Shown here piece after piece: positions 29,278 to 58,808 of a stretch of DNA of 64,000 nucleotides (position 1 is the stretch's first letter; each line of letters starts with the position of its first letter). The notes beneath the pieces are model-generated. The model saw nothing but the letters and a program-made list of their open reading frames with translations. It ran no database searches and was not told the origin of the DNA. Origin of the DNA: Pteria penguin (lineage: Eukaryota > Mollusca > Bivalvia > Pterioida > Pteriidae). The translations under genes and the position numbers were made by a program. The stretch spans positions 18,160,501 through 18,224,500 of the forward strand of contig CM068585.1 in the NCBI GenBank assembly GCA_035048485.1, written 5' to 3'.

Positions 29278-29290
29278 TTTATCGCTATAG

Positions 29291-29577
29291 GAAGAGATAC
29301 ATTTCGACCATGGACAGAGATTGTATTAGAGAAAATTGGGATTATCTCGTGAAGAACATAGAGGCCAAAGAATTGATTGATTATTTGTACCAATGCAGAA
29401 TACTTAATGAATATGACATTGAAAAAATTCCTACAATGTTACGTCTTGACGGAAACAGGCATCTTTTATCAAAAGTCGAAAGGCATGAGCATGGTGTCCG
29501 GAAATTGTTTGAAGCTCTAAGGAGAACAGATTCCTATTTCATTGAAGAGGAAATCCAGAGGAAATCGAAAGAAAAGA
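29291..29577 (+). CDS. CARD domain exon
   Basis: Begins after TTTTCTTTTATCGCTATAG and has a good start context (GACCATGG) at 29310. The 89 residues show the CARD pattern: NWDYLVKNIEAKELIDYL, then QCRILNEYDIEKIP, LLSKVERHEHGVRKLFEAL and a last helix ending near EEEIQRK. The acidic and basic faces typical of CARD-CARD contacts are present. The frame is open to the acceptor, so residues before the chosen Met are possible. Confidence 0.85.
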
Positions 29578-32500
29578 GTATGTTTTTCTGAATTATTATG
29601 ATTACATCTCGATAATTTAAATCTGTTAAGTATATATTATTTTGAACAATGGAGAACTACTCAGTATTACATCAACGGAAGTACATAGTAAACCCTGCAT
29701 TTACTTCACCGTGATGAACAAATACATAATATATTGTTTATAAAGGTTATCGATCATTGGGTGACGTCATAGATTTAGATTTTTCGTCAAAAGAAAGGGT
29801 GGGGAAAATGAAACCTTGTTGATTTGTCTTCATTAAAAGATGCATTTATATCATAGTAGTAACAAAAGAACGTAAAATAGTAGGTCTCAAACATATATCT
29901 GATTAGTTATAACTTTCCAAGTCAAATAGGTTATTTGCATCAATTTTGTGTCAAAATAAGATGGCGGTGTTACATTATTTTGCGTATTTTTCAATTTAGC
30001 ATGGATATATATATATAAAGCACAAAGACACTAAAGCTTACAAGGCACCATATATTTGACTTATATTAGTTCCCCGTCTGGGGCTCGAACCAACAACCTA
30101 TTGTACCGAATCACCTATATATATGTATATATTTATTTATATTTGTGCTCCAATAAGCATCTGACATTGTAGAAAGAGTGCAATGTAAACTTAAGAATTT
30201 TACATATTATTCATCTATATAAGAGCTGCCCTTTCGGTTTTTTTTTACAATGATTTGGCGACAAAATAATGGGAGGGCGCTGTAAGGATATTAAAATCTT
30301 ACTTTACGCTAAATCTAACGTAGTCACATATATATTTCTTTTGTTTATTAAGTACATATGACAATGGACCAAGAATGACAATAAATCAAGAAAATGAGAT
30401 TTGCATATATTTTACATTATCAGCACTCTATATATCATATTTTCATCATATTTACGGGGTATAAGTTTAGCCAACAGAAATGCAAGACAGCTTTTTCTGT
30501 CATTATGCATATCAGGGATTCTAAAATTGAAACTGAACCATGAAGGAAAAATAGTATACTTCAATTAAGAAGTGTTTATAATATGCTGATTTACATCAAA
30601 CTGCACGTGCAATGATATCTAATAGATGATTTGTTTGATTAAGGAATTACCAAAATATGAACTAAACCTTTTAAGACTCTATAGTTTTGAATTCTTGATC
30701 AAACGGAAACAAATATTGGTAGTTAGTGTTTTAACACCACCAATTTATTTGTGTCGTATATGTACTTAAAATTAAACAATGAAGCACACAATTTTCACTT
30801 GAAAGTTTTTAGGAATAGATAACCCCTAATCAGTGTATAAAATATCAATGTTATCTTTACTCGTTATAACGTCGACTATGTAGTTTTTTGAATCAGCTGC
30901 TGCTGACTCATAACAGGTTTATCTAAGTTTTTGTTGCATTTGTTATCAGAAGAATGTCTCCGTATATCGATCTTGTATTTTTAAATCAAGTTTTCGGCAC
31001 CGGAGTTATAAAAGCTAAAAATAAATATTTTCGAACTAGGTCTCATTATTTTTAAATGTGATCTGTATAGGTCTTAGTGAATTTTTATGTTTGTTACATT
31101 CTGACATCTGACTACTTTTCGACAAATTTATTGGCCCTTAAAACCAGTGACCTCTGCCAGAGACATGCAAACGCGATCTGCAGTCATGGCTGTATTTGCT
31201 TTTCTTTCCAAAGGCAATAATAATTTAGCATATCGGTTCAGTTTCACAAACAGGTACATCGATGACGCTTTGTCAACTAACAAAGATAACCTTAACTATC
31301 ATATATCCAAAGAAGCTCGAGATAAAAGATACAACGGATAGCGCATCTTCTGCTGCATAAATCGATATACTACTATCAATTACTGACGATGGTTCATTAG
31401 TAACCTCTCTTTCTGACAAACGTGACTATTTAGAGTTTCATTATAACCAAATTCAGCAACATACCTTCCTCTCCCGCATGTAGCGGTACGCTATGCCAGA
31501 GCATGCTCTAAATACGAAGATTTCGTCCTGAGATTGAGGCCCCTTGTCATGAAACTATTCTCACAGGGATAAATGGAGGAACGCATGGAATTGTCACTGA
31601 GGAAGTTCTATGGTCGATATAGGGATCTGGTGCAATTTGAAATCACCATTTCAAGAATGCTAACCGACATTTTGGGATCTGACCATACTAACTAACCTTC
31701 TTAACTTCCTGGCTATACTTAACCTGACATAATATGTATATATACAAACATTTTTTCATTCCGACACCGGAATTTCTGTGCGACAGTATTTCATACCGTA
31801 AATAGGATAATTTGAATCAATGTTCTTCTCTCCTTCATGTTCGCATTAACCTGAATATGACACTGTATGCGGTGTTGTCATTTTATATTATGGACTGCAA
31901 GATATGGTTAACCCTTCGGTACTTCTTCGTTTATTACTTTAATATATATATATATATCTAAAAATTGAAAAGCACTATTTCGAATTGGGATTTTTTTTCG
32001 TTTTTGTTTTTGGTGCATATATGACCTGACAACTAAGAAAACGAAGAAGTACAATAGACGTATAATTGATTAATCCTTGAAATAAAAGAGAAATTAATGT
32101 TTACAATACATTTTTTTCTACAAATACTTCACTAAATGAATAAACTTAATACATAATAAGGTATATCAGTCATTAAAGAAAATTGTGTTTACCGAATTAT
32201 TTTTATTTCTGTAGACAACACTAAACCAGCATGATAGTGTACCTTACCTAACTTGACTGAATTAACCTAACTGATGAATACTAATTACACAAAATGACAA
32301 CAAAACACAAACATCGCCACACAAACGAAAATATACGTGCAGTCACTTACTTAATATAAATTTCAGTTCAACCGAATTTTATGTCGTGAATAGGATAATT
32401 TGACTTACTGTTCCCCGCGGAGGATTTGTGTTTTAATACTTTTTTCCTGATTTTATATGGCAATGACACTTTTAAAACAGAGTTGGTTCATATTGAGTTG

Positions 32501-35500
32501 AGAGTAAGTGTCTCAGTCGCCATGGATGTCCTTACATACAGAAGAAACAAATGTAAGTAAGGACATCCATGGCGGCTGAGACACTTACTCCTCTCGGACA
32601 CTTGTTCTCAACTCAGGGGTCCGTGAATATCTGCCATGATACATTGTTGTTTGTGCCATAGTCACTTGACACCAGTTACTTTCGTATTTTGTGTTATCCT
32701 TGTATTGAAACGCGATTGAGTTAGGTAGACTGTCAGATATGTTAATAACAAATGCAAAATTACTACAGCACAAAAGTAAATATTGATGCAAATGAGTCCA
32801 AACATGAAAGCCCATCTATATACAGGAGCAAATATTTTTCAGTTGATAGATAATTTCATGTAACTTTACAGTTGTTATTTGTTTTCTGTTTTATTTTCCT
32901 TGTTTTTTTTATTTTTAGTATCGAAGGATAGTTATGGTTCAACAGATTCTGAGGTACAGGGTGCAGATAGAAATCCTGTAGCAGAATCGGTAAGGACTAA
33001 ATGCTCTTCATACATTGACTACTTAAAATATGAATAATAGTTTGCAAATTATTCTAAAACAAATGAGTATCTATCGCCACTTCAACCAGCCTGACCACTC
33101 TATTCTCTCAATGAAAATTAGAATTATAGAAAAAATATATCACCCCACAAACAATGCCAATCTGAGCACTCCTTTTCGTCGGAAAAGAGAAGAATACTGG
33201 ATAAGACGTCTCGGCACTGCTTCGCCCTATGGATGCAATGACAATATTAGTAGTATTGGTAACCTCACTAGTCCTGCGTGTCAATCAGTTAACGTACTCG
33301 GTTTATTCAACAAAAGCCAGAGGAGGCATCGAAGTTATGGTACACGCAAATACAACAAACCTGAAATACATAATATTTCCTTTGATGCTCTTTTGCCATT
33401 TATAAATAAACCTTTGGGCGTTCATCACATTCGTACAAAACTTTATTCTATTTCACTGAGAAAATTACACGAGTTGTACGTATCGTCCAGACACCGTATA
33501 TTTACTGATATAAGCTCTGCAGAGTATAAATGGCATTATTATGGACATATCGACCGCTAGACTTTTTCGTCCCGTCAAGTCAGATATTTCTATGGAAAAA
33601 TCTAATCGCCCTTTCATCAAAATTAAATTTGCAAATAAAGGCATTGATTATTTAAATTTTGGCCAAATTTTAAATCATAAGTCTGTTTTAGAGAAAATAC
33701 CTCCATATTTCAAAAACAAAGATCCGCCATGTATTTCCTATGGCTACACGCCATCAGTTGCATCCAAAATTTATAATTACAAAGGGTTTCTACAGTGTCT
33801 TGATCTTAGCAACTCTGCATGCCATCCTCAATCGTGTGCATGTTCCTCATCTAATTTTGTATATTCTCCTTGTGGCCATGTCGTTACTGGTGATCTCGAT
33901 ATTGTTAAAAACACTAAATTAAGAGAACTTTTACTTAAAGGTCCAAAATACAGAGAACCCAGATCATTCACATGGAGCCAAAATTTTGAGAATATTATGA
34001 ACTGCTGCGAGGAATATGCCACACGATGGGCAAAAAGAGAGGAAGTACAGATCGACATTCTTTCGGAATGGATAAAATCTATTGCAGTACTGCTAAGATC
34101 AAAAATTAAAAAATTACAATGTTCTGTAAACACTAGATTCGAATCTATTTTTAAAGATCCTGATGTTGTCAGAGAACTTACCTTCCTCCAAGAACATTAT
34201 ATCATTACACCAGCAGATAAAGCATCCAATAATTATACATTTACTTGTAAGAAATATTACTTTGACAGCCTAGTGAAAGAATTAGGATTAAATTCAGCTC
34301 CAGGAAATCCTACTTATACTCTCACGAACTTTTCGGTTTCGGAAGTACTCGAGAATCATAAATCTGTCCTCAATACGTTTGGTATTGACTCAAATAAATT
34401 AAATTTAGAACATCCATATTTGTACTGCATTCCAAAAATGCACAAAAAATCCTTACAAACAACGCTTTATCGCTGGTTCCTTGAAGTGTTCCACAAAATC
34501 TGTATCGATGCTACTCACAAAAATATTATCAGAAATTAAATCTGGCCTTCATAGATATTGCAAAACAGTATATTCCAGAAGTGGAATTAATCAAATGTGG
34601 ATCCTTAAAAATTCAAAAGAGTTGTTAAAAATCTAAAATCAAAAAGTTTTACTAAAATTCACTCTATCAAGTCTTTTGACTTTTCGACTCTTTACACAAC
34701 GATCCCTCATCAGAAATTAAAAGACAGATTAGCGGAAATTATTCAAAATGCATTTACTAGTAAAAACGGAAGCCGCAAATTCAAATATATAGTAATAGGC
34801 CACGATAAAACTTACTTTGTTAGGGAAAATTCTGATTCCAAAAATAAATACACTGAAACAGCTGTCATCCAGATGTTGAACTTTCTTATCGATAACATTT
34901 TTGTGGTGTTTGGAGGTAAGGTTTTTCAACAAATTGTCGGCATTCCAATGGGCACTAACTGTGCTCCGCTTCTGGCTGACATATTCCTTTACTCATACGA
35001 AGCTGAATTCATTCAGTCTTTGCTTTCGCAAGGAAAAAAAAAAAACAATTGGCTCTTGGCTTCAATTTTACTTACAGATATATAGATGACTTGCTTTCAA
35101 TTAATAATCCTTCATTCGCGGATTACCTTAGCATCATCTATCCAAGTGAACTTGAGGTCAAAGAAAAAAGAGGAGTTACCGGCTTAGTTATGTGGCAGAA
35201 GTCACCATGGAGCTATACAATACATGAATATAAATAATATAACAGAACATTTAACACATTACAAAAATATTTGATTGTAGTGCAATTACGATACCGACTT
35301 AGGACGGTCATTTAATTTGACAAAAGCCAAACAAATGGTGTGGTTAACCGGTTTACGGGCCCACCTTCCCACTCACCCTAGATCTGTAGGAGTCCCGACT
35401 AACAGTCAGAGGGGACGAGGTTCAGGACCATGTCTCCTCTGAAAGAGGTTTGGACAAGGCCCGTCATATAGTCCCCACCGCCCTGTTAGTCAGCGTGCAA

Positions 35501-40531: not shown

Positions 40532-40744
40532 TTAACCACCCACGCGACATTCTCGTGGGCACTCGTTTCTTCGCACTTCACATTTTCTCATGCATCTGTT
40601 ATAATTTGCTTTATGATGTCTGCACTGTTTTTTACAATTCGATGCTTCTATATTGCACCTTTCACGACAGTTAATGGCGGTACTGACACTGGCAATGGAG
40701 AGTAACATCAACGTGACAATCAACACCGTCATAAGAGATTTACC
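40532..40744 (-). CDS. Secreted CX3C-type peptide 1, main exon
   Basis: Minus-strand exon after CTATATACAG at phase 0; the stop is at 40532. With the tiny start exon at 43264-43255 it gives about 72 residues: Met-Lys, a hydrophobic signal core (LMTVLIVTLMLLSI) ending near STA, then a mature part with eight cysteines spaced CX3C-X6-CX3C-X9-CX3C-X6-CX3C and rich in Arg and Lys. A minus-strand AATAAA lies at 40491-40486. This looks like a secreted antimicrobial-type peptide. I do not recognise the family, and venom-type or other roles are possible. It is convergent with the CARD gene, whose stop lies 358 bp away. Confidence 0.8.
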   Translation of the reverse strand, partial: GKSLMTVLIVTLMLLSIASVSTAINCRERCNIEASNCKKQCRHHKANYNRCMRKCEVRRNECPRECRVGG

Positions 40745-41674
40745 CTGTATATAGCAAATACTTTGTAATTTAAATATATATCACTAACATGTACGTCCAT
40801 ATTATATCATAATCTTTTATTATATCAAATTCTCAACTAATATGTTGTCGAATATATTACTGGTACAAAGCAAATGCAAACAAATATGGAATAAATATAT
40901 TGCATTCGAGGTTTATTATAAAACGTGTATTTTCATAAAATGTAAATGTACATATTTATGTGTGTATGAAAAGGATTTCTGCTGATAATAAAACAAACTG
41001 AAAATATACTGATTCTACTACACTTTTTCCATATTACTTAATTGTAATAGTTATTTCCCATTTGTGAAGGTATCTGACGACAAAATCATTGTGACGTCAT
41101 AGATTTCCTATTGAAGTGTTATTCTTGTGCTTAATGTCCCTTAATTCTACATTAATGTCCGAGAGACCGGCTTACCTCGTGTCAGATATCTGCTCAATTG
41201 GTAGATTACTCTGAAAGCTCATAACAATTATCATACAAAAATCTTGTTCGCGTAAATACTTGTACAGACATCCTTTACTGACATTGATTTATCAGATTGT
41301 ATAGCTGCCCATTGAATTAGATAATATATTTGTCTTTTAAATAATTTGTAGATATATATACTATTTTATTGTAACGACTTAGAACATATATCTTATACCT
41401 GATAGTCAATGTGAACATACCCTAAGATTTGAATTCTAAATTTTTATTATTTATCTAAGCAGTATTTGTATTTGAACTGCATAATGTGCTCCCCGTACCT
41501 TGTAAAATCAATTCAATCTATGTATGGGAACTTTCTTTGTCTCTCCAAATGACAACCTTGACATATGACACAAACATAATTATGATCTGAGTTATAATTA
41601 ATATTATAGCAATAACCAGTAACCTTATTAAAGCATAGACTATTTCAATAAGTGGAATTGTCTGCCCTCGATAA

Positions 41675-43075
41675 CTGAAACTTTCTGTATATCACAGTAA
41701 GATATATAGGTTATTGATACTAGATAATGATAACTTTCTGTAAGTCACAATAAGATATATAAAGGTGATTGATAATTGATAATTAGAATGGCTGTCACTA
41801 TAAGATATATAAAGGTGATTGATGCTCGATAATTATAACTTTCTGTAATTCACAGTATATTATGGTGATTGATACTTGATAATACTGACTTTCTGTAGTC
41901 ACAATAAGATATATAATGGTGATTGATACTTGATAATGATAACTTTCTGTATGTCACAATAAGATGTATAAAGGTTATAGAAACTTGACAATTAGAACTT
42001 TCTGTATGTCACAATAAGATATATAAATGTGACTGATGCTTGATAATTAGAATTTCTGTATGTCACAAAAATATATATAGGTGATTGATAGTTGATATTA
42101 AGAAATTTCTACAATTCACGATAAGATATATAAAGGTGATAGAAACTTGATAATGATAACTTTCTGTATGTCACAATAAGTTATATAATGGTGACTAATA
42201 TTTGATAATGATAACTTTCTGTCTGACACAATAAGATATATAATGGTGATTGTTACTTCACAATGATAAGTTTTTGTATGTCACAATAAGATATATAATG
42301 GTGATTGATACTTAATAATTGTAAATTTCCGTATGTCACAATAAGATATATAATTATGATTGATACTTGATAATTATAACTTTCTGTGTGTCACAATAAG
42401 ATATATAATTATGATTGATACTTGATAATTATAACTTTCTGTGTGTCACAATAAGATATATAATTATGATTGATACTTGATAATGATAACTTTCTGTATG
42501 TCACAATAAGATATATAATTATGATTGATACTTGATAATGATAACTTTCTGTATGTCACATAAGATATATAATTATGATTGATACTTGATAATGATAACT
42601 TTCTGTATGTCACTATAAGATATATAATTATGATTGATACTTGATAATTATAACTTTCTGTATGTCACAATAAGATATATAAATGTGACGGATACTTGAT
42701 AATTAGAATGGCTGTCACAATAACATAAATAAAGGTGATTGATGCTCGATAATTATAACATTTTGTCTGTCACAAAAAGATATATAAAGGTGATTGGTAA
42801 TTGATATTAAGAAATTTCTATAATTCAGGTATATAAAGGTGATAAAAACTTGATAATTATAACTTTATGTCACAATACGTTATGTAATGGTGACTAATAT
42901 TTGATAATGATTACTTTCTGTATGTCACAATAAGATATATAATGGTATTTGATACTTGACAATTAGAACTTTCTGTATGTCACAACAAGATATATAATGG
43001 TGATTGCTACTTGATAATGATAACTTTCTGTACGTCAAAATACGATATATAATGGTGATTGATACTTGAACGACT
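41675..43075. repeat. 55-bp minisatellite in the intron of peptide gene 1
   Basis: About 25 copies of a unit containing AACTTTCTGTATGTCACAAT, AAGATATATAATGGTGATTG and ATACTTGATAATTAT. The copies at 42361-42640 are the most alike; the edges are diverged. It fills more than half of the second intron. Confidence 0.9.
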
Positions 43076-43254
43076 ATATTTCGCCATGGTGAATTTGCAA
43101 TAAAAATATATATAGTGAATTTTAACAGTCATTAAAACCCATTTATGCCATAATTTTTTCTCCGAGGAATACCTTAATGGACATGCGCATGTATCTCACC
43201 ACATTGAATAATATATTCATCTACAGGTGATAACTGATCAGCAAATGCACTCAC

Positions 43255-43264
43255 CTTCATAACT
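43255..43264 (-). CDS. 10-nt start-codon exon of peptide gene 1
   Basis: On the minus strand, ACTTTTGTAG is followed by AGTTATGAAG and then the donor GTGAGT. The exon encodes only Met-Lys and ends in phase 0, which fits the phase-0 main exon at 40744. Genes 2 and 3 have the same layout. Confidence 0.75.
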
Positions 43265-43404
43265 CTACAAAAGTAATATTAAACATATGTTAATAAAATT
43301 GAAAATTTTAAAGATCTTCATAAAATTGTAGACAGAAATTAAGTAGATAACGAAATTAAGGCTGAAAGAAAATAATGATATAATGATTTGAAAATAAAAC
43401 ATTG

Positions 43405-43474
43405 ACTTACATTGCTTGCTCGAAGTTTTATGTGTGAATGTTTAATGGAGTTATGAGACCATTCTATATTTATA
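43405..43474 (-). promoter_or_regulatory. TATA box and non-coding first exon of peptide gene 1
   Basis: TATAAATA at 43474-43467 (minus strand). Transcription would start about 30 bp on, near 43440. A non-coding exon ends at 43411 with GTAAGT. The transcription start is inferred from TATA spacing. Confidence 0.6.
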
Positions 43475-43734
43475 CATAGTTGTAAGCTTATGAAAGATGA
43501 ATTGTCATGGAGATGGGTCATCCTTGTATCATGTGGTATTTACGAATTCTATTTAGATCTGATTTATGTGCATAAAGTCAACCATTCATGAGTACCATAT
43601 TTGCAGTAAATATTCAGGCAAAATAAGCAGTGAAATAAAATATTCAATGACTACGATAATAGTTTATAAATTATTGGAAATCATAGGATATGCCAAATTT
43701 ATACAGCAGTCGTTAGATATTTTTGGTCTTTGAA

Positions 43735-43830
43735 TAAAATCAATTGTGCACATAGTTTTCTAACATTTCAGCAAATTAGACCTTGAGCATTACCGAAAAG
43801 AGTCGAAATTTGCATCTGGTGTGCAAAATT
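43735..43830 (+). repeat. Dispersed repeat R2, short copy
   Basis: CCTTGAGCATTACCGAAAAG followed by GTCGAAATTTGCATCTGG, the R2 3' signature, upstream of peptide gene 1. Confidence 0.55.
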
Positions 43831-43837
43831 AATGTAA

Positions 43838-44160
43838 AGATGATGGATAAATCCAAACCACAAATCCAAAAATCATGAAACCATAGGACATACAAAATCA
43901 GTGAAAATGAAAAACAAATGGAAAATAACAAAATATGTCTACTTGAAGAGCATATGTGAACCCCTGTGATGGAGTGAGATCAGGTGCCCGGGGAGAGTGA
44001 GCATCTCCTGCTTGCTAGCAACACCCGTCACATAGACCCCGTAGAAAGAGTCAAATCGTGTGAATTCCATATGTATCTATATATGGAGAAGTCGAAGTAG
44101 GTAACCTTCTAGTATAGAAGGTGTCAAATCTGTGTAAAGTGATCGGAATCGGATCGGAAT
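43838..44160 (-). repeat. Naiad lineage-1 3' tail only
   Basis: Reverse complement of the tail at 21154-21475, including the shared core (43967-44033) and ending near TTGACACCTTCTATACTAGA. No coding part is attached. It lies about 360 bp upstream of the TATA box of peptide gene 1. Confidence 0.8.
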
Positions 44161-45430
44161 AATGTTAGTATATACGCTACAGTTATTATAAATACATGAG
44201 TCATATTTGATATCATATTCATAGGTCGGATAAAACATTTTGTCGCTTTGTAGAAATGTGATGCATTTCGTGTATTAACATCTAGATACCTTACTGTTAC
44301 TGTCCACTCCGTGATATATTAATTATTATTATAATCATGTGGCGGTTTTGATCCGTACCTACGTCTCTGTTGCATCTACGCCTACCTGCGGGTTTTTCAG
44401 TGGTTTAGGGTCACCTATATTTCAAATTTTGTGTGGGTGTTTGGATATTCCTATTTGATAACTACTCAACATTTAACCAATATAGTTATTTAATATCTGC
44501 ATATCGTAGCGACATTTCTCCTACAACAAATGTCGTATTTCCGCTCTTATCAATACTGTATATTCACATAAATTTTATACCTTTCAGATAAGATTTAATC
44601 AATTATAAGCTTCCTTTCGCACTGCATTATTGGATTTCCGGTGTAGAAAATGGTAGTCAAATATCAAATGTCTTTTGAAAAAGTGATTTTTCTTATTAAA
44701 ACTTTTGAGAACTAATAATACAGCTTTATTTCAGTTATTATGTCACCATAGAATATGTTTAAGAGAGGACTCTCCAACATCTTACTAGTCTGTAAGACAA
44801 GAATCACCACAGACATGTAGAGCATACACGAATAAAGATATAGAATTAATCTACTTTCACTTCATAAATTGCGATAATCATTGAGTGCATCATATGGTCA
44901 TTACGATTAACAATTCATCTACAGTGCAGTGATATTACTGTGATCTCATTTTATCTAAGAAATACCTAGCATATTTCTTTCTCTAAGCAAATCTTAATCA
45001 GAAATCAGGTTTAAGTCCATGTGACGAGTTAGTGCTACGAATCATTACGATCAATTGATAATAGCTACAGCTCTTTTATACATCGCTCGAGTTTTCTTCC
45101 ACATTACTAGAGCAATTCTAAAGCCAACACAGTTAAGAGATTAGTCAAGTAGTGACAATTTGCACAACTTTATAATGAATTATGACTGGTGTTCTACGAG
45201 AAATGAACAAGTGAAGGCGACAGTTTTCAATTTGGGTATGAAGTACATGTCTTCAATCCCAGGGCTACATACATATATGTACGATACTAAAAAGTTCGTA
45301 GTTTGACATTAATATTGTTCAAATCTGCCCTAATTTTCTGTGACATGAAATGGCCAAAACTTATGTCATGTGTGAAATTATAAAGCATTGAGCTTCTTAT
45401 GTATGTTTTGGCTTTTTTATAGCGAATATT
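44161..45430. other. No feature recognised
   Basis: AT-rich spacer without supportable exons or repeats known from elsewhere in the window. Confidence 0.4.
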
Positions 45431-45439
45431 GTTAATTTA

Positions 45440-45535
45440 AAGGAAACAGCTCCTCCTACTGTACACCTGGTCTGTCATCTGAATTTGAAGGGTTTATGAA
45501 TGCTCATTGTTGTAAATTGTCGTGAGCGCCCCAGT
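45440..45535 (-). repeat. Dispersed repeat R1, decayed copy
   Basis: GAAACAGCTCCTCCTACTG followed by ACACCTGGTCTGTCATCTG, TTATGAATGCTCATTG and GTTGTAAATTG matches the R1 core and flank in minus orientation, with many changes. Confidence 0.55.
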
Positions 45536-46244
45536 TTATATAGCAGAAGGCTCCCGTAGTTTACTCATGTGATTTGTTTGGCACGGAAATGTTAAAATAT
45601 GAGATTTCTAGATATTCTGACTTGCTTTATGCGTGGTGATCAATGCAGAAATTAAGTAGTGTTATTCGATGTGTGTGTGTCTGAAAAAGTATCACGGTCA
45701 ACATCGATTAATGCATCAATTTAGGTATATAAATTTATATACAGCTCTCAGCCACTTGTTATGTTTTGTATAACTTCGTAATTACTGATGAACATTTTTT
45801 ACCCTGAAGTTCTATTCATATTGCAAATTTTGGACTATTTTAATGGATACTACACTTTGTAGTCTTATCAGATTCATACAAAGAAATGCAATAAATCTCC
45901 AGGCAAACGGACTATGTACTGCATAGCTTGGACTTCTTTCATCTTTATATTAGCATCAAAAAATAAATACTTGTAGGGTCGGAATGAGCTTTGACGATGC
46001 ATAAATAAAGTTTTAATGTTGAAATTTGATCTCTAAACATTGCAGTACTATCTTAAAGGGTTCGATATAGACTTATAAGGACCTGGTAAGGTGTGCTCAA
46101 ATCGTTGTTAAAATTTTATATTTTTCTTATCATTCGTATTTTTTGTAACTATATCACATCATGCATATCATTTATAACTTTAATCAGACTATGACTACGG
46201 TTGTGCTGAGTAAATCCTTCTAGAATAAACTTTGACATCGTTGT

Positions 46245-46320
46245 GGGTATTGACGATTACCAGAGGATGCTTACTCTTTAAGGGCATCTGATCCGATCTC
46301 CCTCTTTCAGGTTCCATGAT
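46245..46320 (-). repeat. Shared core motif copy next to a TA microsatellite
   Basis: ACCAGAGGATGCTTACTC followed by GGGCATCTGATCCGATCT is a diverged copy of the core shared by R1 and the Naiad lineage-1 tail. It runs into the TA tract. Confidence 0.5.
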
Positions 46321-46328
46321 TCCTTTTA

Positions 46329-48780
<2,452 letters not shown>

Positions 48781-48786
48781 AATAAT

Positions 48787-49029
48787 CTATGAATCTCCTT
48801 CGACGTATGCACCAATGCCACCTCCTCTTCTACATCGACGCATACAATGTTCCTTTTTTCGGAAACATCTTTTTTCGCATCTCCATGGATTTCGACCTTC
48901 GAATCTACATTCTAGTTTGCATTCCCTCTCCCGCCTATCACATCTATGTCGACATCTTCTTCGATGATTGGCATCAACAACTGAAAGAAGTATCAGCGTC
49001 ACCAGCAAGACGATAATCAGAAATCTACC
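48787..49029 (-). CDS. Secreted CX3C-type peptide 2, main exon
   Basis: Minus-strand exon after ATCTTCTTCAG at phase 0; stop TAG at 48789-48787. With the tiny exon at 50494-50485 the product is about 82 residues: Met-Lys, signal core FLIIVLLVTLILLSVV with likely cleavage after VDA, then an Arg-rich mature part with CX3C-X6-CX3C-X9-CX3C-X6-CX3C spacing and a Gly-rich C-terminal tail. By my count the mature part has 21 Arg/Lys against 9 Asp/Glu. The strong charge and the cysteine ladder suggest a membrane-active or antimicrobial peptide; this is inference. The frame also extends upstream through the acceptor, which would give a longer non-signal start; the shared exon structure argues against that. 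Confidence 0.8.
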   Translation of the reverse strand, partial: GRFLIIVLLVTLILLSVVDANHRRRCRHRCDRRERECKLECRFEGRNPWRCEKRCFRKKEHCMRRCRRGGGIGAYVEGDS

Positions 49030-49559
49030 CTGAAGAAGATAAAACATGCAAGAGAAATCCGCTTCATCACTAAGACTCTGATAGAGACAAAATCTGAATA
49101 TTACCTTACAAAACATGGATAATTTGTACTATTTGAACAAGGCACGTGCATCAATATACCATAGATAACAACCATTAACCCATGGAAATAACAATAAAGA
49201 CAAAGTGCTCCAATAGCGCTGCTGATTTTGCAGGTCATCTCAGAACGAACGAAAAATACAAATAAAAAAAGATGTTTGAAAGATATTAACTACACACATG
49301 GAATAAGGAATAAAAAGCAAAGTATAATTTATGTCCACAAAGTATTATAATGGCCGTGTAATAACTGTCGCTCACAGGCAAGTTGTGTAGAAATTCCATA
49401 ATTATTTGGTATAAATAAAACGTCGAAAGTAACGACTACAAAGTGAGCACAAGGCCTAGCAGCTGTCGTCCTAGTCTAAACGGCCACTTTGTTCTATACT
49501 AGTAGAATTATAATAAAAGAATGAGCATTAAAAGTTGTGATATGTGAATTAAAAGAAAA

Positions 49560-49870
49560 GATAAAAGACATTTACAAATCTGTATGACAGAACTCATAAA
49601 GGACATGCGCATTAAACATGATAATCAAATAAACACAAGAAAACGACATTACAAAAATAAATATTGTACTGCAGCTACGATACCGAATTAGGACGGTCAA
49701 TTAGAGTACCAAACCTCACTCCATTGATGTGATTAATCGGTTTACGGGCGCCCACCTCCTCACTCACCGCAAAAGCAGTACATTCAAAAGACACACATTT
49801 AAAAATCAATAGATCAAGAGAAGATGAATCAACAGGCTTCACATGACGAAATGTCATAAAAATCAAATTA
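49560..49870 (-). repeat. Diverged Naiad 3' tail
   Basis: Matches the tails at 7375-7640 and 59555-59717: ACGATACCGAATTAGGACGG, then GGTTTACGGGCGCCCACC and CTCACTCACCGCAAAAG. No coding part remains. It lies in the second intron of peptide gene 2. Confidence 0.65.
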
Positions 49871-50094
49871 ATGGTTATTGTTGCTTTAATTTTGTGATAG
49901 ATGTGTATACTGAATTTATTTATTAAAAATTTGAATATGAGCAATGAAAGAACACCAAATAATATACCAGAAACCTTCCTTCATATTTATTTTCAGTTTT
50001 ATCAAGAGTATCAAATGTAATATTGATAAAATAGCCAATACGTTTGTAAGTATGAAGTAACATACGTATGTAATATCATAAATATAGAACATAT

Positions 50095-50215
50095 ATACCT
50101 CTTAATTTTGTGCACCAGATGCGCATTTCGACAACTGACGTCTCTTCATTGAAGCTCATGCTCATAACTTAAATATTTGAAGAGCAGTATTAAAACGAAG
50201 ACAAAGAATCAATCT
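50095..50215 (-). repeat. Dispersed repeat R2 copy
   Basis: TTTTGTGCACCAGATGCGCA, then TTTCGACAACTGACGTCTCT and TCATTGAAGCTCATGCTC, the R2 end in minus orientation. Confidence 0.65.
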
Positions 50216-50484
50216 AATGACAGACCTATGCATTGGTGAGATACTCCTTAGTTTTAGAGTGATTTACATAAATTCGTGACGGAAAATTTTCAGTATATAT
50301 TTAATTACAACAACAAAAACAATTACCACTACTTCCAGCACCACCAACGCAACCACACCATCAACAGCGATAGTAAAATTGCTATTTAAACAATACTGGT
50401 GTAATAAATTGAAGATTTAAGGATAATTAAATAGGAAATCGAAATGAATACGGCTACATTTATAAAATGATAATTATTTCTTAC

Positions 50485-50494
50485 CTTCATTACT
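50485..50494 (-). CDS. 10-nt start-codon exon of peptide gene 2
   Basis: The minus strand reads TCTATGTTGCAG, then AGTAATGAAG, then GTAAGA. It encodes Met-Lys only, in phase 0, as in genes 1 and 3. Confidence 0.75.
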
Positions 50495-50524
50495 CTGCAA
50501 CATAGACAATATAAGATTTAATAC

Positions 50525-50626
<102 letters not shown>

Positions 50627-50754
50627 GAATGCAATACACTATGCGCTTGGCTCATCTCTTGCCCAAAATTGAAAATTAATGTTTTCAGTACAGTGCCTTT
50701 TTGTAGTAACTCAATTATAAGCATGAAAACATATATGCCCTTATCTATAATAAT

Positions 50755-50900
50755 ATTAAATATAGAACATACCTTTTAATTTTGTGCACCATATGCGTAT
50801 TTCGACAATTTATGTCTCTTCAGTGATGCTCGTGGCCGAATTATTGGAATTCTCAAAATATATAAAAATATGAAGAGCAGAATTGAAGCCAAAATGACCG
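50755..50900 (-). repeat. Dispersed repeat R2 copy
   Basis: ATTTTGTGCACCATATGCG, then TTCGACAATTTATGTCTCTT and CAGTGATGCTCGTGGCC. The best-preserved R2 end in the window. Confidence 0.7.
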
Positions 50901-50969
50901 AAAAGTGAACCAAAGAATCTATCTAAGGACAGAGCTATATTATACGCTATACATGTTTCGAAAACTGGG

Positions 50970-51075
50970 CTAGTGTAGCTTCGTGGATAAGGTGCTTTGT
51001 CCCAGACCGAGGGGTCCCAGATTTGGTTTCTGTTGTCAGCACACTGGTGTCCCGTATGTAGGTGAAACAGTAAAA
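50970..51075 (+). repeat. tRNA-like SINE head
   Basis: CTAGTGTAGCTTCGTGGATA followed by AAGGTGC (A-box-like) and GAGGGGTCCCAGATTTGG (B-box-like) about 35 bp on, in the first intron of peptide gene 2. Confidence 0.4.
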
Positions 51076-51204
51076 CTCGAAATTCTGTGTTACAAAAGGC
51101 ATTATACGTGAAAGATGTACTCGCTCCTTTTGCTTGGTCCGTTTCTAAGGTATAAATTTCTATGGATTGTCGTACTGGTTATGTAAAATAATCATGGAGT
51201 GGCG

Positions 51205-51320
51205 TAGAAGAATAATCAGTCCATCATTTCGACAACTGATGTTTCTTCATTTATGCTTAGGTTAGAAATTTTGAAATGCAAAACATTTATTAAATGCAAA
51301 TTATTTGCAAAATATTTGTT
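51205..51320 (-). repeat. Dispersed repeat R2, diverged copy
   Basis: CATTTCGACAACTGATGTTT followed by CTTCATTTATGCTTAGG, close to the first exon of peptide gene 2. Confidence 0.5.
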
Positions 51321-51475
51321 AAAGTAAGAGATAGAACCTAATTGAAGACGGAGATATTTGTGAGGGAGAAATTCCTTCACAATATGAATAATTCTACAAG
51401 ATTGCACAGAGGAAATACTTATTTAAGATCAATTTCATTATCTTCCATGCACAGTAGTAACAAATGTAAATAATT

Positions 51476-51539
51476 ACTTACCCGGCTTATCAAGGATTAA
51501 CTTGACTGATATTCTATTCACACATGGACAGCCTTTATA
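51476..51539 (-). promoter_or_regulatory. TATA box and non-coding first exon of peptide gene 2
   Basis: TATAAAGG at 51539-51532 (minus strand), the same octamer as gene 3. A non-coding exon ends at 51482 with GTAAGT. The start site is inferred at about 51510. Confidence 0.6.
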
Positions 51540-51770
51540 CGTGCTTGTTTACCTGAGCACGTAAAAGGATGTTGTTGGCTTTGAGAATAATGCATCAAAT
51601 GATACTGTATCTGTCTACTGCATGTGATTAATCACATTATAATTCAAAACGATGACACATTGATAGTCATATAGGGTTAGAGTGATGAATACTTCTCATT
51701 TAATATCGGAAACAGATTTCCGAGAATAATGCAGATTGATATGTCGATGGTCAGAGACGGATCGAGTGCG

Positions 51771-51835
<65 letters not shown>

Positions 51836-51867
51836 AATCATCATCATCATCATTATTATCATTATCA
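51771..51867. repeat. (ATC)n microsatellite
   Basis: About 30 trinucleotide units with two interruptions. The poly-Met frame on the minus strand is an artefact. Confidence 0.97.
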
Positions 51868-52206
51868 ACAGTAGCAACAGTGTAGTAGTTTTTTTTTAAT
51901 TAACGAATCTACATGAACACCATTTAAAAGACCTCTGAACACTCTTATGCAATTCAGGAATGGAACTGGGTTCCTCTAATCATCAGTGGTGTGTCTAACC
52001 ACTACATCAATTACATGTATGTAATTGGCTAAAACATTTTTATTCATTTCGGTACTTTCATATTCGACTTGTGCGTGCCCTTTTCATGCATTTCATGGAG
52101 ATTGGGTTTTGAGTACGGAACTCAAGGAAATAAAAACTAGAAACTTTTTAATTAAGCTATTGTCTGTTGATTTCTTTATCATATGTTTAAGGTACAGTAA
52201 ACATTA

Positions 52207-52443
52207 TTATGAATTTTCGGCGATGCCTCCACCTATGCTACCTGTTCTACATCGACGCATACACAGCGAGTTTTGTGTAGAGCACCTTCTTCTACATCTC
52301 ATTTGAATTATACTGTTGAACCTACAGTTCCGTTTGCATCTCGATTCCTCCCTGTCACATCTCTTTCTACATCTTCGACGGTTGGCGTCAGCAAGTGAAA
52401 GTAACATCAGAGTAACCACAAAGACTATGATGAGAGACCTGGT
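52207..52443 (-). CDS. Secreted CX3C-type peptide 3, main exon
   Basis: Minus-strand exon after TTCCAATTTAG at phase 0; stop at 52207. With the tiny exon at 53235-53226 the product is about 80 residues: Met-Lys, signal core SLIIVFVVTLMLLSLA with likely cleavage after ADA, then an Arg-rich mature part with CX3C-X6-CX3C-X9-CX3C-X6-CX3C spacing and a Gly-rich tail. It is the closest relative of peptide 2: both have Asn-to-Arg-rich starts after the signal, the loop begins Arg-Phe, and the last pair reads CMRRC. The two genes are tandem duplicates about 2 kb apart. Confidence 0.8.
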   Translation of the reverse strand, partial: TRSLIIVFVVTLMLLSLADANRRRCRKRCDREESRCKRNCRFNSIIQMRCRRRCSTQNSLCMRRCRTGSIGGGIAENS

Positions 52444-52825
52444 CTAAATTGGAAATATATAGTGGTAATATCACAAAAAGAACACAATACATCGTGATAA
52501 ATACATTACTACGGTTCCTTCATTCAGCGAGGCAAATTACGTAGTGAATGTTATTATCACAAGGATATGAAATCAAACGCCTAAAGTCAAGATTACGCAA
52601 ATTTTACGGGCGATATTAAGGTCTGTGTAGAATTATCAGATATCATTGTCCGACATGTTGACTTCGCTATTCGGTTGTAGATGTTTTTATCGTTTAAATT
52701 GCAGTAGAATTCTTTTGCAATAATACAAGTCGCGACGTTTTACCAAATAAGACTACGGTATTATACCATCTACTGAATATCACTCGCAGTTTATAATGAC
52801 TCGACATATATAATGGTATCACGGC

Positions 52826-52910
52826 GGGTGTGACTTGTCGACAGGGGATGCTTACTCCTTCATGGCACCTGATCCCACATTGGAATTTTTTAGTGTCAGT
52901 GATTGTTGCT
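52826..52910 (-). repeat. Shared core motif copy in the intron of peptide gene 3
   Basis: GGCGGGTGTGACTTGTCGAC followed by AGGGGATGCTTACTCC and GGCACCTGATCCCAC, a third variant of the core found in R1 and in the Naiad lineage-1 tail. Confidence 0.65.
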
Positions 52911-53225
52911 ACTCGGTATCTTATAGTTGTTGTATATGATTATCTGAATGTGTTCTTAGTTTATAGTAGATAATGTTGTTTCCTGTTCATAAACAATAAA
53001 TGGCACTCAATTACATACAGCTAGTAATATTATAAAACAATAATACAATAATGATAATAATAATACAATGATATCTAAACACAACATATACTATTAATAC
53101 TAGCGCAACATTTAGATTCGATTTAGATTTGAAGAATAAGAGAAATACAACATTACTATTTCAATATAATTCAGTTTAGTCACAATAAGTTCTATTTGAA
53201 TTCTAATAATTTAACAAATACTTAC

Positions 53226-53235
53226 CTTCATGATT
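53226..53235 (-). CDS. 10-nt start-codon exon of peptide gene 3
   Basis: The minus strand reads TTCTGTATTGTAG, then AATCATGAAG, then GTAAGT. It encodes Met-Lys only and ends in phase 0. Confidence 0.75.
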
Positions 53236-53593
53236 CTACAATACAGAAATCTAAAGTGATACAGATATAAAACGTGTCATTTGTAAATTAAACACGTATT
53301 TCATGTTCAATAGAGCTTTACAGGTTTGAAAAGAAAACTAATGTAAGCATCATTATCTTATTTATCACGAAATTCAGAGACATAAAAACTTTAATAAAGA
53401 ATGGGAACAAGACTTCTATTGAAATCTTGCAAGTGAAAACACGTGTTATCAAATCTTAACTTTCGGAGAACATCAGTCTTTATGTTGATGTGAAATACAC
53501 AGGCATTTGGTCTTATTTAATAGTAGTGGAATATTATTCAAACGGAACTTTGAATTAAATTTAATGTAAACAAATTATCTAGAGTGATAAATA

Positions 53594-53655
53594 ACTTACC
53601 TATATCTGCAATTATGACAGTATTGATAGTGTTACACGCATTTCATACCTTTATA
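53594..53655 (-). promoter_or_regulatory. TATA box and non-coding first exon of peptide gene 3
   Basis: TATAAAGG at 53655-53648 (minus strand). A non-coding exon of about 25 nt ends at 53600 with GTAAGT. The start site is inferred at about 53625. Confidence 0.65.
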
Positions 53656-53699
53656 GTTATGTGTTAACAAAATGATGAAGAATACATTTCACTGAATAT

Positions 53700-54780
53700 G
53701 ACGGTACTATGCCATAGAATGCTATATTTGTCTATTGTGTAAGTGATTACTATCACTACTTATAATTGATATCATAATCATTTATTATTATGACAAATTA
53801 TCTGCAATAACAAAGCAAAATATCATTAATGCATGTATATTAAATACCCCTGTGTCGTGTTTGTTACTGTTTGATAACGACCTTCACCCACATACAGTCG
53901 AAACATGGACGCTGCAGATGGTGAAGGATGATTTCGCAAGGCACCACTTTATACGATTACAGGATGTAACATAAACAGAATGCTTCGATTAAAGTAAACA
54001 ACGAATAAACACCGATAAGAAAATATATATGTACATATTCAACGCATGCATAATGTACATGTTACATGGCATGTGTGAATTTGCAGCGGCTGATACGACA
54101 CACTAGTAGAATTTGTGAAAAATATGATTACATGGGTCGATTTGGTCTCAACACTTATGATATTAATATCTATAAGTGCTTCAAAATGAAAAAAAAATCC
54201 CAATTACATTATCTGCAAGTTCTTCTATGATCAATTATTACAAAAGTTAAGCAACCTTATTATATGCTTAAGAACTAAATATTTCAATAAGCACTAAAAT
54301 TCTCAAATTCTGAAGCTGAGATAGAGCAAATACTTATAAAGACGGGTAAAGTATTCTCCCAATAGCATGGCTTCTTACAGATGCTTATTATTTCAGTACG
54401 ACGCATTTGTGAAAAAAAAAAATAAATAAATAATAAAACAATGAAATATACTCCCTTGTGTGGCTGTTGATGCAGATTTTCATTTCACTTTCTTATTTCG
54501 GTTTGAGAATTTAATTCGCGGAGCATGGGAACTATTATGTATAATTTTGAATCATAAAACATAATTGAAGTTAGGTAAAGGTAATTTTGATCTATCAATT
54601 TGCTGTCTGTAAACGCAAACTAGAGTTGTCTACCGTGGATAAAATCTTTAAAATTAGGCAAATAATTAAAAATAATTACTTAGTTGAATATATAATTAAA
54701 TAATGAAAAATGTACATTGTATTTACAAATATTATAATACTTGTTTGTATATCATTGTACACATGAACGACATGAGCAAG
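53700..54780. other. No feature recognised
   Basis: AT-rich spacer upstream of peptide gene 3. No open frame or repeat from elsewhere in the window was seen. Confidence 0.4.
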
Positions 54781-54782
54781 AT

Positions 54783-55705
54783 TATAGCTCACTCAACTAT
54801 AGGAAACAGGATTTATCATCATAGCTCACTTAACTATAGGAAAAAGGATTTATCATCATAGCTCACTCAACTATAGGAAACAGGATTTATCATCATAGCT
54901 CACTCAACTATAGGAAAAAGGATTTATCATCATAGCTCACTCAACTATAGGAAACAGGATTTATCATCATAGCTCACTCAATTATAGGAAACAGGATTTA
55001 TCATCATAGCTCACTCAACTATAAGAAACAGGATTTATCATCATAGCTCACTCAACTATAGGAAACAGGATTTATCATCATAGCTCAATAAACTATAGGA
55101 AACAGGATTTATCGTCATAGCTCACTCAACTATAGAAAACAGGATTTATCATCATAGCTCACTCAACTATAGAAAACAGGATTTATCATCATAGCTCACT
55201 CAACTATAGAATACAGGATTTATCATCATAGCTCACTCAACTACAGGAAACAGGATTTATCATCATAGCTCACTCAACTATAGGAAACAGGATTTATCGT
55301 CATAGCTCACTCAACTATAGGAAACAGGATTTATCATCATAGCTCAATCAACTATAGGAAACAGGATTTATCATCATAGCTGAATCAACTATAGAAAACA
55401 GGATTTATCATCATAGCTCACTCAACTATAGGAAACAGGATTTATCATCATAGCTCACTCAACTATAGAAAACAGGATTTATCATCATAGCTCACTCAAC
55501 TATAGGAAACAGGATTTATCATCATAGCTCACTCAACTATAGGAAACCGAATTTATCATCATAGCTTACTCAACTATAGGAAACAGGATTTATCATTATA
55601 GCTCACTCAGCTATAGGAAACAGGATTTATCATCATAGCTCACTCAACTATAGAAAACAGGATTTATCATCATAGCTCACTCAACTATAGGAAACAGAAT
55701 TTATC
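54783..55705. repeat. 37-bp minisatellite, about 25 copies
   Basis: The unit contains TAGCTCACTCAACTATAGG, AAACAGGATT and TATCATCA. The copies differ at only one to three positions, so the array is young or homogenised. The period is not a multiple of three and no frame stays open. Confidence 0.95.
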
Positions 55706-55844
55706 CATCAGCGAATAGGACAGAGGCAATATTGATTACTTGTATAAAAGATATATCACAAAAAGGATTATTTGCAATATATATATAAATATATGCAATG
55801 ATACATGGAATACAAAACAATATGGCATCAGATAAGATCGAAGT

Positions 55845-57250
55845 AAACGATAAGCTGCGTGTTGGCATAATAAGTACACTAAATGATAAGCTGTATGTTG
55901 GCATAATAAGTAAACTAAATGATAAGCTGTATGTTGGCATAATAAGTACACTAAATGATAAGCTGTATGTTGGCATAATAAGTAAACTAAATGATAAGCT
56001 GTATGTTGGCATAATAAGTACACTAAATGATAAGCTGTATGTTGGCATAATAAGTACACTAAATGATAAGCTGTATGTTGGCATGATAAGTACACTAAAT
56101 GATAAGCTGCATGTTGGCATAATAAGTAAACTAAATGATAAGCTGTATGTTGGCATAATAAGTACACTAAATGATAAGCTGTATGTTGGCATAATAAGTA
56201 CACTAAATGATAAGCTGTATGTTGGCATAATAAGTACACTAAATGATAAGCTGCATGTTGGCATAATAAGTAAACTAAATGATAAGCTGTATGTTGGCAT
56301 AATAAGTACACTAAATGATAAGCTGTATGTTGGCATAATAAGTACACTAAATGATAAGCTGTATGTTGGCATAATAAGTACACTAAATGATAAGCTGTAT
56401 GTTGGCATGATAAGTACACTAAATGATAAGCTGCATGTTGGCATAATAAGTAAACTAAATGATAAGCTGTATGTTGGCATAATAAGTACACTAAATGATA
56501 AGCTGTATGTTGGCATAATAAGTACACTAAATGATAAGCTGTATGTTGGCATAATAAGTACACTAAATGATAAGCTGCCTGTTGGCATAATAAGTACACT
56601 AAATGATAAGCTGCATGTTGGCATAATAAGTACACTAAATGATAAGCTGCATGTTGGCATAATAAGTACACTAAATGATAAGCTGTATGTTGGCATAATA
56701 AGTACACTAAATGATAAGCTGCATGTTGGCATAATAAGTACACTAAATGATAAGCTGCATGTTGGCATAATAAGTACACTAAATGATAAGCTGTATGTTG
56801 GCATAATAAGTACACTAAATGATAAGCTGTATGTTGGCATAATAAGTACACTAAATGATAAGCTGTATGTTGGCATAATAAGTACACTAAATGATAAGCT
56901 GCCTGTTGGCATAATAAGTACACTAAATGATAAGCTGCATGTTGGCATAATAAGTACACTAAATGATAAGCTGCATGTTGGCATAATAAGTACACTAAAT
57001 GATAAGCTGTATGTTGGCATAATAAGTACATTAAATGATAAGCTGCATGTTGGCATAATAAGTACATTAAATGATAAGCTGCATGTTGGCATAATAAGTA
57101 CACTAAATGATAAGCTGCATGTTGGCATAATAAGTACACTAAATGATAAGCTGCATGTTGGCATAATAAGTAAACTAAATGATAAGCTGCATGTTGGCAT
57201 AATAAGTAAACTAGATGATAAGCTGCATGTTGGCATAATAACTACACTAA
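55845..57250. repeat. 36-bp minisatellite, about 39 copies, open in several frames
   Basis: The unit contains CTAAATGATAAGCTGTATGT and TGGCATAATAAGTACA. Because 36 is a multiple of three and the unit lacks stops in three of six frames, frames of 487 codons (plus) and 467 and 539 codons (minus) stay open. The plus frame would give a 12-residue repeat (NDKLYVGIISTL). There is no signal, splice context or codon bias to support a protein. Units 18-26 and 27-35 form a 324-bp higher-order duplication. Confidence 0.95.
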
Positions 57251-57660
57251 ACGTAATATAACAGTAACAGTAACAAATCTTCTGTAATTTCTTAGTTTCT
57301 TCTACACAAACATTTGGCATTTATTATATGGAAAAGTGATTGAATATATTTTGTGTGTACCTTTTATACATATCATTTTTCTGTGTTTTGTCTCTATCAT
57401 GTGTTTTCTTACATTTGAAAGTCTTAGTTTTTTAAATATATGTTTTACAAATAAGTCGAAAGCTGTTAGGTTTAAGCTGTATACTTTTCTTAGTGTCTTT
57501 TACATAGATACATGATAATAGTACATCCTACACTCATATGACACCAAAATAACCTTGACACAATAGGCTTCTAACAGTGATCATTCATATTTGATTTAGT
57601 AATGCAACATATGGCATTCAAATGTCATAAGTTTATGCCTATATTGTGATATATTACATT
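57251..57660. other. No feature recognised
   Basis: AT-rich sequence between the 36-bp array and the TATA box of peptide gene 4; probably holds its upstream promoter. Confidence 0.35.
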
Positions 57661-57668
57661 CAAAAGTG

Positions 57669-57739
57669 TATAAAAGCTCATTTTACTGACCATAATTATC
57701 TGCTAATACACAACTTTTGTTCACGGTATTCAGGTAAGC
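57669..57739 (+). promoter_or_regulatory. TATA box and non-coding first exon of peptide gene 4
   Basis: TATAAAAG at 57669-57676. A non-coding exon ends at 57733 (GGTATTCAG) before GTAAGC. The start is inferred near 57700. The layout matches genes 1-3. Confidence 0.6.
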
Positions 57740-58255
57740 AATGATATTTAGCTTTAATAGTAGATGTAATCCACAAACCATGAGATCATGTATTAATATT
57801 AATTTATATCTATATTTCAATAAATAATGACTTTCATTTATGCTCAAGACAAAAAAAATGTAGAAGCCTGAAATATAAGAAGAGCAAACTCATTATCAAA
57901 ACGAACTAAGTGGAAAAGGCCCCTCTCTCATTTAAGGGTAAAGCTATGAATGGGTTAAAAACTCCTTATTTTAGGAGAGTAGCTATACAATAACAATAAA
58001 CTAGAGTCAGTTACAGATACCCTGTAATTAAAACAAATACGGTTAAAGGAAAGATTCCTGATCTTAGGTGCCACATTTTATCACTGTGCTACGTTGCAGG
58101 TGGTTTAAATCAGTGACATCGTTTAAAATACTGTAATGCCAGAGCCGTTATCATCGTATATTCTTATTGTGAATAGTTGCAAGTCATCTTTAAATTTAGA
58201 TTATTATCAGGACTTTCAGTTCCGTTGCTTATTTTGCGAATTTATTCTATTTCAG

Positions 58256-58279
58256 TAGCTTTCTTTCATCATGATGAAG
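58256..58279 (+). CDS. 24-nt start-codon exon of peptide gene 4
   Basis: TTCTATTTCAG is followed by 24 nt ending ATGATGAAG and the donor GTTTGT. It encodes Met-Met-Lys (starting at 58271) or Met-Lys (58274) and ends in phase 0. It is longer than the 10-nt exons of genes 1-3 but has the same role. Confidence 0.65.
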
Positions 58280-58610
58280 GTTTGTTTTACATTTGTCAAC
58301 GTTACAATGTTACTATTCATTTTTAGAAAATTTCCTCTTAGATATAATTATTAATGGTCTATCTATCAATGTGTAAATTTTTTATGTTTTGCTTGGTTAA
58401 AGATAGTCATGGTGGAAGTTTTATGTAATTTATTTCATTTATTGTCAATATATCTGATCACGTATGCTTTGAGCTAAAAGAAACCATAGGAAAAATTTAT
58501 TAAACATAAAACATGTGTAAAGAAGTTGTAAATTTTGTAGATTTCTTTATTTACTGGGAGAAAAGACACTAATGTGAGATAAGTTTATAATTACATTGAT
58601 GTTGTTTCAG

Positions 58611-58808
58611 AGTAAAGTTCTGTTTGTTTTGGTGGTGTGTTCCCTCCTCCTGATATCCGTGTCTGCGATTAGCAGACGTGCGTGCCGTAAAGCTTGTAAC
58701 GCACAAGAAAACGTCTGTGTTGCTGGTTGCAAACCGAATGCTAGCAGATGCAAAGGCAAATGCGTGACTGCTAAACAGGATTGCCTCTCGAATTGTCGGA
58801 ACAATTAG
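58611..58808 (+). CDS. Secreted CX3C-type peptide 4, main exon
   Basis: Plus-strand exon after GATGTTGTTTCAG at phase 0; stop TAG at 58806-58808 and AATAAA at 58908-58913. With the tiny exon the product is about 68 residues: signal core VLFVLVVCSLLLISVSA, then eight cysteines spaced CX3C-X6-CX3C-X6-CX3C-X6-CX3C. The central loop is six residues where genes 1-3 have nine. It is also less Arg-rich, has no Gly-rich tail and lies on the opposite strand. It is a diverged paralogue. An Asn-Ala-Ser sequon falls in the central loop. Confidence 0.85.
   Translation, partial: SKVLFVLVVCSLLLISVSAISRRACRKACNAQENVCVAGCKPNASRCKGKCVTAKQDCLSNCRNN

Follow-up and report, generated by a model that had tools for sequence, protein, structure and literature searches.

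Peptides with an eight-cysteine ladder and a predicted disulfide-stapled helical hairpin fold: a bivalve gene cluster and its many relatives in the same genome

The window analysed here, a stretch of 64,000 nucleotides from Pteria penguin (C6:18160501-18224500), carries four genes encoding small proteins, in which a signal-like leader is followed by eight regularly spaced cysteines. In a six-frame scan, the double CX3C-X6-CX3C ladder turned up in four open frames of the window and in no other: genes 1-3 on the minus strand (40532-40780, 48787-49128 and 52207-52443) and gene 4 on the plus strand (58578-58808). The cysteine intervals are 3,6,3,9,3,6,3 in genes 1-3 and 3,6,3,6,3,6,3 in gene 4, with tip loops of 9, 9, 9 and 6 residues between the two halves. 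A sequence-only reading of this DNA had described the same leader, halves and loops, and our scan finds them at the same positions with the same intervals; its placement of the cysteines within about 60 degrees on one helix face also agrees with the helical wheel, on which offsets 0, 4, 11 and 15 fall at 0, 40, 20 and 60 degrees. The two-half pattern (loop 4-14) occurs four times in the window and not once in 40 order-3 Markov simulations, which rules out a chance origin of the ladders. A looser cysteine pattern adds only CXXXC runs at 26.2 kb, which are an artefact of a short tandem repeat. Genes 1-4 carry net charges of +8, +12, +14 and +8, and the mature part of gene 4 is only 32-36% identical to those of genes 1-3.

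The main coding exons, stop codons included, were delimited from the cysteine pattern, the reading frame and the acceptor: 40532..40744 (minus, with an AG acceptor) for the leader and eight-cysteine mature part of gene 1, 48787..49029 (minus) for gene 2, 52207..52443 (minus) for gene 3 and 58611..58808 (plus) for gene 4. Since genes 2 and 3 have no methionine at the leader start within this exon, the main exons appear to lack the likely translation start, and each gene is predicted to have a small upstream exon that ends in ATGAAG directly before GT and is followed by a phase-0 intron. For gene 1 the predicted start exon comprises the 10 bases AGTT-ATGAAG at 43255..43264 (minus, ATG at 43260), placed by the AG acceptor, the GT donor and likeness to the start exons of genes 2 and 3. 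Those of genes 2 and 3, also of 10 bases, are predicted at 50485..50494 (minus, ATG at 50490) and 53226..53235 (minus, ATG at 53231), and that of gene 4 at 58256..58279 (plus), ending in ATGATGAAG with ATGs at 58271 and 58274; a stretch at 57669..57676 (plus, TATAAAAG) resembles a TATA box of gene 4. The predicted introns of genes 1-4 measure about 2.5, 1.45, 0.78 and 0.33 kb, and joining the exons would give the N-termini MK-GKS, MK-GRF, MK-TRS and MMK-SKV, each leading into the hydrophobic leader. A phase-0 intron after Met-Lys would then be common to all four genes despite the divergence of gene 4. In a comparison of upstream regions, weak matches among genes 1-3 cover the start-exon stretch (E 0.07-0.8), and nothing clear was found for the start exon of gene 4 against genes 1-3. 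The sequence-only reading had overlooked the predicted start exons, leaving its genes short at the 5' side. A 55-bp array (41793-43069) lies inside the predicted first intron of gene 1, and two long minisatellites separate the divergent genes 3 and 4 (54784-55710, 37-bp unit, 25 copies; 55844-57251, 36-bp unit, 39 copies).

The four genes do not form a family of four, as had been supposed, because another four follow in the 23 kb beyond the end of the window, and dozens are found elsewhere in the genome. The 838 Mb genome (49 contigs) was searched with gene 2 as query (14 places) and with a relative on contig C7 (49 places), which together gave 53 distinct places. C7 holds forty of them and C6 eight, namely the four window genes and the four beyond; C11 has two at 27.1 Mb and one at 13.7 Mb, and C2 and C3 have a single place each. 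The ATGAAG-GT stretch was not found within 1.5 kb of g5-g8, the four cluster genes beyond the window. Nine places (seven on C7, one on C11 and the C2 locus) were left out as broken, incomplete or variant, and the other 44 of the 53 hold a complete eight-cysteine frame, encoding 42 distinct peptides. The exact order 3,6,3,loop,3,6,3 is present in 38 of these 44 frames, the rest having a first half of 3,6,5 (three), 3,7,3 (two) or 3,8,3 (one), and the loop is most often 8 (24 frames) or 9 (12), with lengths of 4 (3), 5 (1), 6 (3) and 12 (1) also seen. Methionine is absent from its usual place in three frames (L042, L064 and L070). A third search, with another C7 peptide, listed 65 matches at E <= 1. 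Of these, 22 were new, including nine on C10; those close to E 1 may be due to chance, and all genome counts are lower bounds. Eight new places were examined: two (L076 and L078) have leader and exact ladder, L080 has the ladder with its leader out of frame, L077 a near ladder, and the remaining four are variant or broken. Thus, leader and ladder occur together in at least 46 frames of this genome.

Net charge over the 44 frames spans -4 to +13, so a cationic charge marks the window cluster and not the family. In the two C11 relatives L022 (C11:27097580-27097993) and L023 (C11:27104075-27104347), the ladder is followed by a tail rich in Thr, and the peptides are close to neutral or acidic (+1 and -4), which means that the scaffold does not always carry a cationic surface. 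The C2 locus contains a cysteine-rich frame with a leader (L027, 2400-2657, minus) that matches the family profile with E 4e-6; it was excluded from the family for its different cysteine order, and is possibly a diverged cousin.

The family members evolve in two different ways. On C7, another chromosome-sized contig, the 33 family frames share a conserved, nearly constant leader and fixed cysteines, around which the mature part is highly variable and fast-changing. We have estimated the ratio of nonsynonymous to synonymous divergence (dN/dS) there from 14 disjoint pairs, reusing no gene and dropping near-identical copies, although tree paths of such pairs may overlap. The leader gave 0.48 (p = 0.002; dN 0.08), and the mature part, with shared cysteines left out, a pooled value of 1.29 that is not significant (p = 0.07; dN 0.37). 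Single pairs range from k2-k3, without any replacement, to k1-L032, with dS 0.05 and dN 0.54. These estimates supersede an all-pairs count over 395 overlapping pairs (mature 1.45, leader 0.50). The mature dN/dS of C6 is 0.23 (p = 8e-8; three pairs, with dS saturated in one), and constraint is seen in the C11 pair too (0.13 against 0.77). The window cluster on C6 is thus a conserved group under purifying selection, in contrast to the C7 group, which is diversifying or relaxed while keeping its cysteines; since only frames with a full ladder were admitted, the retention of cysteines seen here comes partly from the choice of rows. The midpoint-rooted tree places C6 and C11 on one side and C7 and C3 on the other.

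The fold of these peptides was modelled with AlphaFold2 for genes 2 and 4, using four-row alignments. The gene 4 model (predicted local distance difference test, pLDDT, 90.5) has helices at 3-19 and 26-45, and the gene 2 model (pLDDT 81.9) helices at 2-24 and 28-47 before a disordered tail, with a short turn between the helices in each case; a prediction with paired helices, proposed earlier as a check, was therefore obtained for both genes modelled. We have also examined the bridges by setting up two rigid ideal helices with cysteines at 0, 4, 11 and 15 and trying all 24 four-with-four pairings. Only two of the 24 are fully satisfiable, a nested antiparallel set and one parallel set. In the nested set (1-8, 2-7, 3-6, 4-5), which works because the cysteine spacing is palindromic, Cys4 and Cys5 are 4.9 A apart; the parallel pairing leaves a gap of 24 A, which the short loop would need full stretch to cross. 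The C-beta atoms of a CX3C pair inside one helix are 6.4 A apart, too far to bridge. The rigid-helix geometry therefore favours the nested bridges, and the antiparallel hairpin that the sequence-only reading had put forward with exactly this pairing is backed, as a prediction, by the AlphaFold2 models, the geometry and solved precedents.

The hairpin fold itself is not new, B-IV of the nemertean Cerebratulus lacteus (PDB 1VIB) and acrorhagin I of Actinia equina (PDB 6UX5) being precedents. Among small stapled hairpins, acrorhagin I gave the best template modelling (TM) scores (TMq 0.75, TMt 0.70), and the structural similarity of the predicted hairpin to 1VIB is weak. Foldseek with the gene 2 model returned one weak match. 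Acrorhagin I is a disulfide-stabilised helical hairpin with four disulfides, to which the predicted fold may correspond, and one of its bridges links helix to loop (PMC11722136). Acrorhagin-like peptides of octocorals likewise form large paralogous families; their genes are intronless (PMC11896702), unlike the window genes with their predicted intron after Met-Lys.

The likeness to B-IV is closer in the cysteines. B-IV has eight of them with a span of 40, as in genes 1-3, and a second half of CX3C-X6-CX3C (PMC6410017); it is secreted and cationic, and its two antiparallel helices and four disulfides are those predicted for the window peptides (PMC6410017; PMC11126048). B-IV is a nemertean peptide, and the host genome of the window peptides does not look nemertean. 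The arrangement of B-IV and its beta-nemertide relatives, eight cysteines in two halves on a leader-bearing precursor, is found in all four window genes. Five of the seven B-IV intervals (3,6,2,10,3,6,3) equal those of genes 1-3 (PMC6410017), and the two that are off by one cancel each other, namely CX2C against CX3C at Cys3-Cys4 and a loop of 10 against 9. The tip loop is 10 or 16 among the beta-nemertides (PMC6410017; PMC11126048), and the loop of 6 in gene 4 departs from the 10 of B-IV. In the profile search of PDB sequences with 12 family members, 1VIB was third of the three matches listed, in register but not significant (E 3.5), and it was not among the matches listed for the four-member profile.

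This near-identical spacing and span, the match in register and the fast change of the C7 mature parts under a conserved leader would fit ion-channel toxins or deterrents of the B-IV type, discharged in mucus to ward off predators, parasites or competitors. However, we know of no venom organ in bivalves, and no significant sequence match links B-IV to the window peptides. The residues critical for B-IV activity, Arg17, Arg25 and Arg34 (PMC6410017), also have no counterpart in genes 1-4, which have N/D/D/N, Q/E/N/G and Y/P/Q/A at these places. We therefore regard a channel-toxin role as quite unlikely.

Searches of protein collections (labelled nr, UniRef and EukProt) gave 551 candidates with the four-sequence alignment and 1517 with a 12-sequence alignment, none of them at E <= 10; since matching needs shared 5-residue words, distant relatives with the same cysteines could escape both searches. 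In Pfam, all matches of the four window proteins stayed below the curated cut-off, as did those of 12 family members (best E 0.057), so Toxin_3 and Ac110_PIF were rejected as family identities, as were the non-significant PDB sequence matches to adenylate kinase, serum lectin and others. No bivalve report of an eight-cysteine ladder family was found in the literature searched. The earlier statement that no described bivalve family has this exact pattern thus holds within that literature and the two protein-collection searches, but near-identical spacing on a solved helical hairpin was already known from the nemertean B-IV, which the sequence-only reading did not name.

In alpha-hairpinins, two disulfides cross-link two helices. 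The alpha-hairpinin or CS-alpha-alpha class, with four cysteines in two CX3C pairs, was rejected as an identity for the window peptides, which have eight. The plant alpha-hairpinins and scorpion kappa-KTx toxins (CS-alpha-alpha) do share the helix-loop-helix stapled by cysteine pairs, with defence roles in many, and the kappa-KTx-type motif places two disulfides between its helices, against the four predicted here (PMC11722136). By analogy with such scaffolds (cf. PMC11722136), the hairpins might act as enzyme inhibitors or metal binders. No loop residue that could serve as a reactive site is common to the family, and His is absent from genes 3, 4 and g5, which makes either activity very improbable.

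Aplysia attractin also folds as a helical hairpin, and recognition proteins are another class that diversifies fast. Both points would suit water-borne or gamete signals, stable and disulfide-rich, acting in reproduction or recognition. Attractin resembles the window peptides as a small secreted disulfide-rich mollusc peptide and acts as a pheromone, but it has six cysteines and three disulfides, against eight cysteines here, and is present as a single copy in its precursor (PMC3484142). At least 46 copies in one genome also seem too many for a signal, and a signalling role is therefore unlikely.

The reading we prefer is that the peptides form a secreted arsenal for defence and present many surfaces on one rigid scaffold, the antiparallel helical hairpin with nested disulfides; the chances of this reading being right or wrong seem to us about balanced. 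It is favoured by the many copies, the signal-like leader, the rigid disulfide scaffold, the cationic window cluster and the fast change in the other cluster. The leader and the fixed ladder would give a secreted hairpin closed by bridges 1-8, 2-7, 3-6 and 4-5. The cysteines, along one face of each helix, would be buried between the helices, so that the outer faces would be free to vary; in the window cluster, Arg and Lys abound on these faces and would promote attachment to acidic surfaces of microbes or mucus, and the C7 branch would track changing targets. The wide charge spread over the 44 frames weighs against this reading if the peptides are taken as simply membrane-lytic. The strong positive charge from which the sequence-only reading had derived an antimicrobial or membrane action is real, and extends to gene 4, but for such an action it is only a hint.

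On a knottin scaffold, Mytilus CRP-I shows a pattern comparable to this proposed arsenal: the signal of this large family of bivalve peptides is conserved, and its cysteine-rich mature part is highly diverse (PMC10138031). It differs in its six cysteines with an adjacent CC, its knottin fold, its propeptide and a mature part encoded in the fourth exon (PMC10138031). The CRP-I array C(X3-6)C(X1-7)CC(X3-4)C(X3-5)C was ruled out for the window, whose mature parts have no adjacent CC and another spacing.

The window also contains features apart from the ladder genes. Three SECIS_1 matches above the Rfam gathering score (28759-28822, plus, 36.6 bits; 35412-35475, minus, 36.6 bits; 7794-7856, minus, 38.8 bits) end three copies of one repeated open frame, whose TGA stop lies inside the SECIS-like core. 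Pfam gave nothing for this frame, which we take to resemble a Penelope-type retroelement; it would be unusual for a retroelement to carry a hairpin of the selenocysteine type at its 3' end. Frames for an AIG1 (GIMAP) GTPase and a HEPN_DZIP3 domain lie on the same strand (6249-7304 and 9993-10631, minus) and are likely parts of one gene, as in a protein of the pearl oyster Pinctada imbricata that has both domains. The best E-values among AIG1 relatives are mostly those of fish proteins with partial coverage; the named relative with the fullest coverage is this HEPN_DZIP3-AIG1 protein of P. imbricata (41% over 97%), and limpet and scallop proteins are also included, a range consistent with a bivalve host. 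The window that holds the peptide cluster also has a CARD domain frame (29238-29588, plus, E 1.2e-9).

Disulfide-stapled helical hairpins, known from plant seeds and a few toxic animals, have been called an emerging toxin fold. What is new here is the scale, with leader and ladder repeated so many times within one genome; our searches found no description of the family, of its size or of its two evolutionary regimes. We tentatively suggest, with slightly less than even confidence, a hyperdiverse superfamily in a non-venomous animal, spread over several chromosomes, in which a rigid four-disulfide hairpin and a conserved signal for secretion are combined with a surface that is rapidly rewritten. 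It would be a bivalve mucosal-defence analogue of the conotoxins of cone snails, and the hairpin toxins of nemerteans and cnidarians would be outposts of a widely used animal scaffold. Such a large hairpin family, with a conserved cationic cluster and a fast-changing one, would supply a natural library of very stable mini-proteins and offer a starting point for the study of mucosal immunity in filter feeders. It would also allow a test of whether hairpin toxins derive from recruited defence peptides or are convergent.

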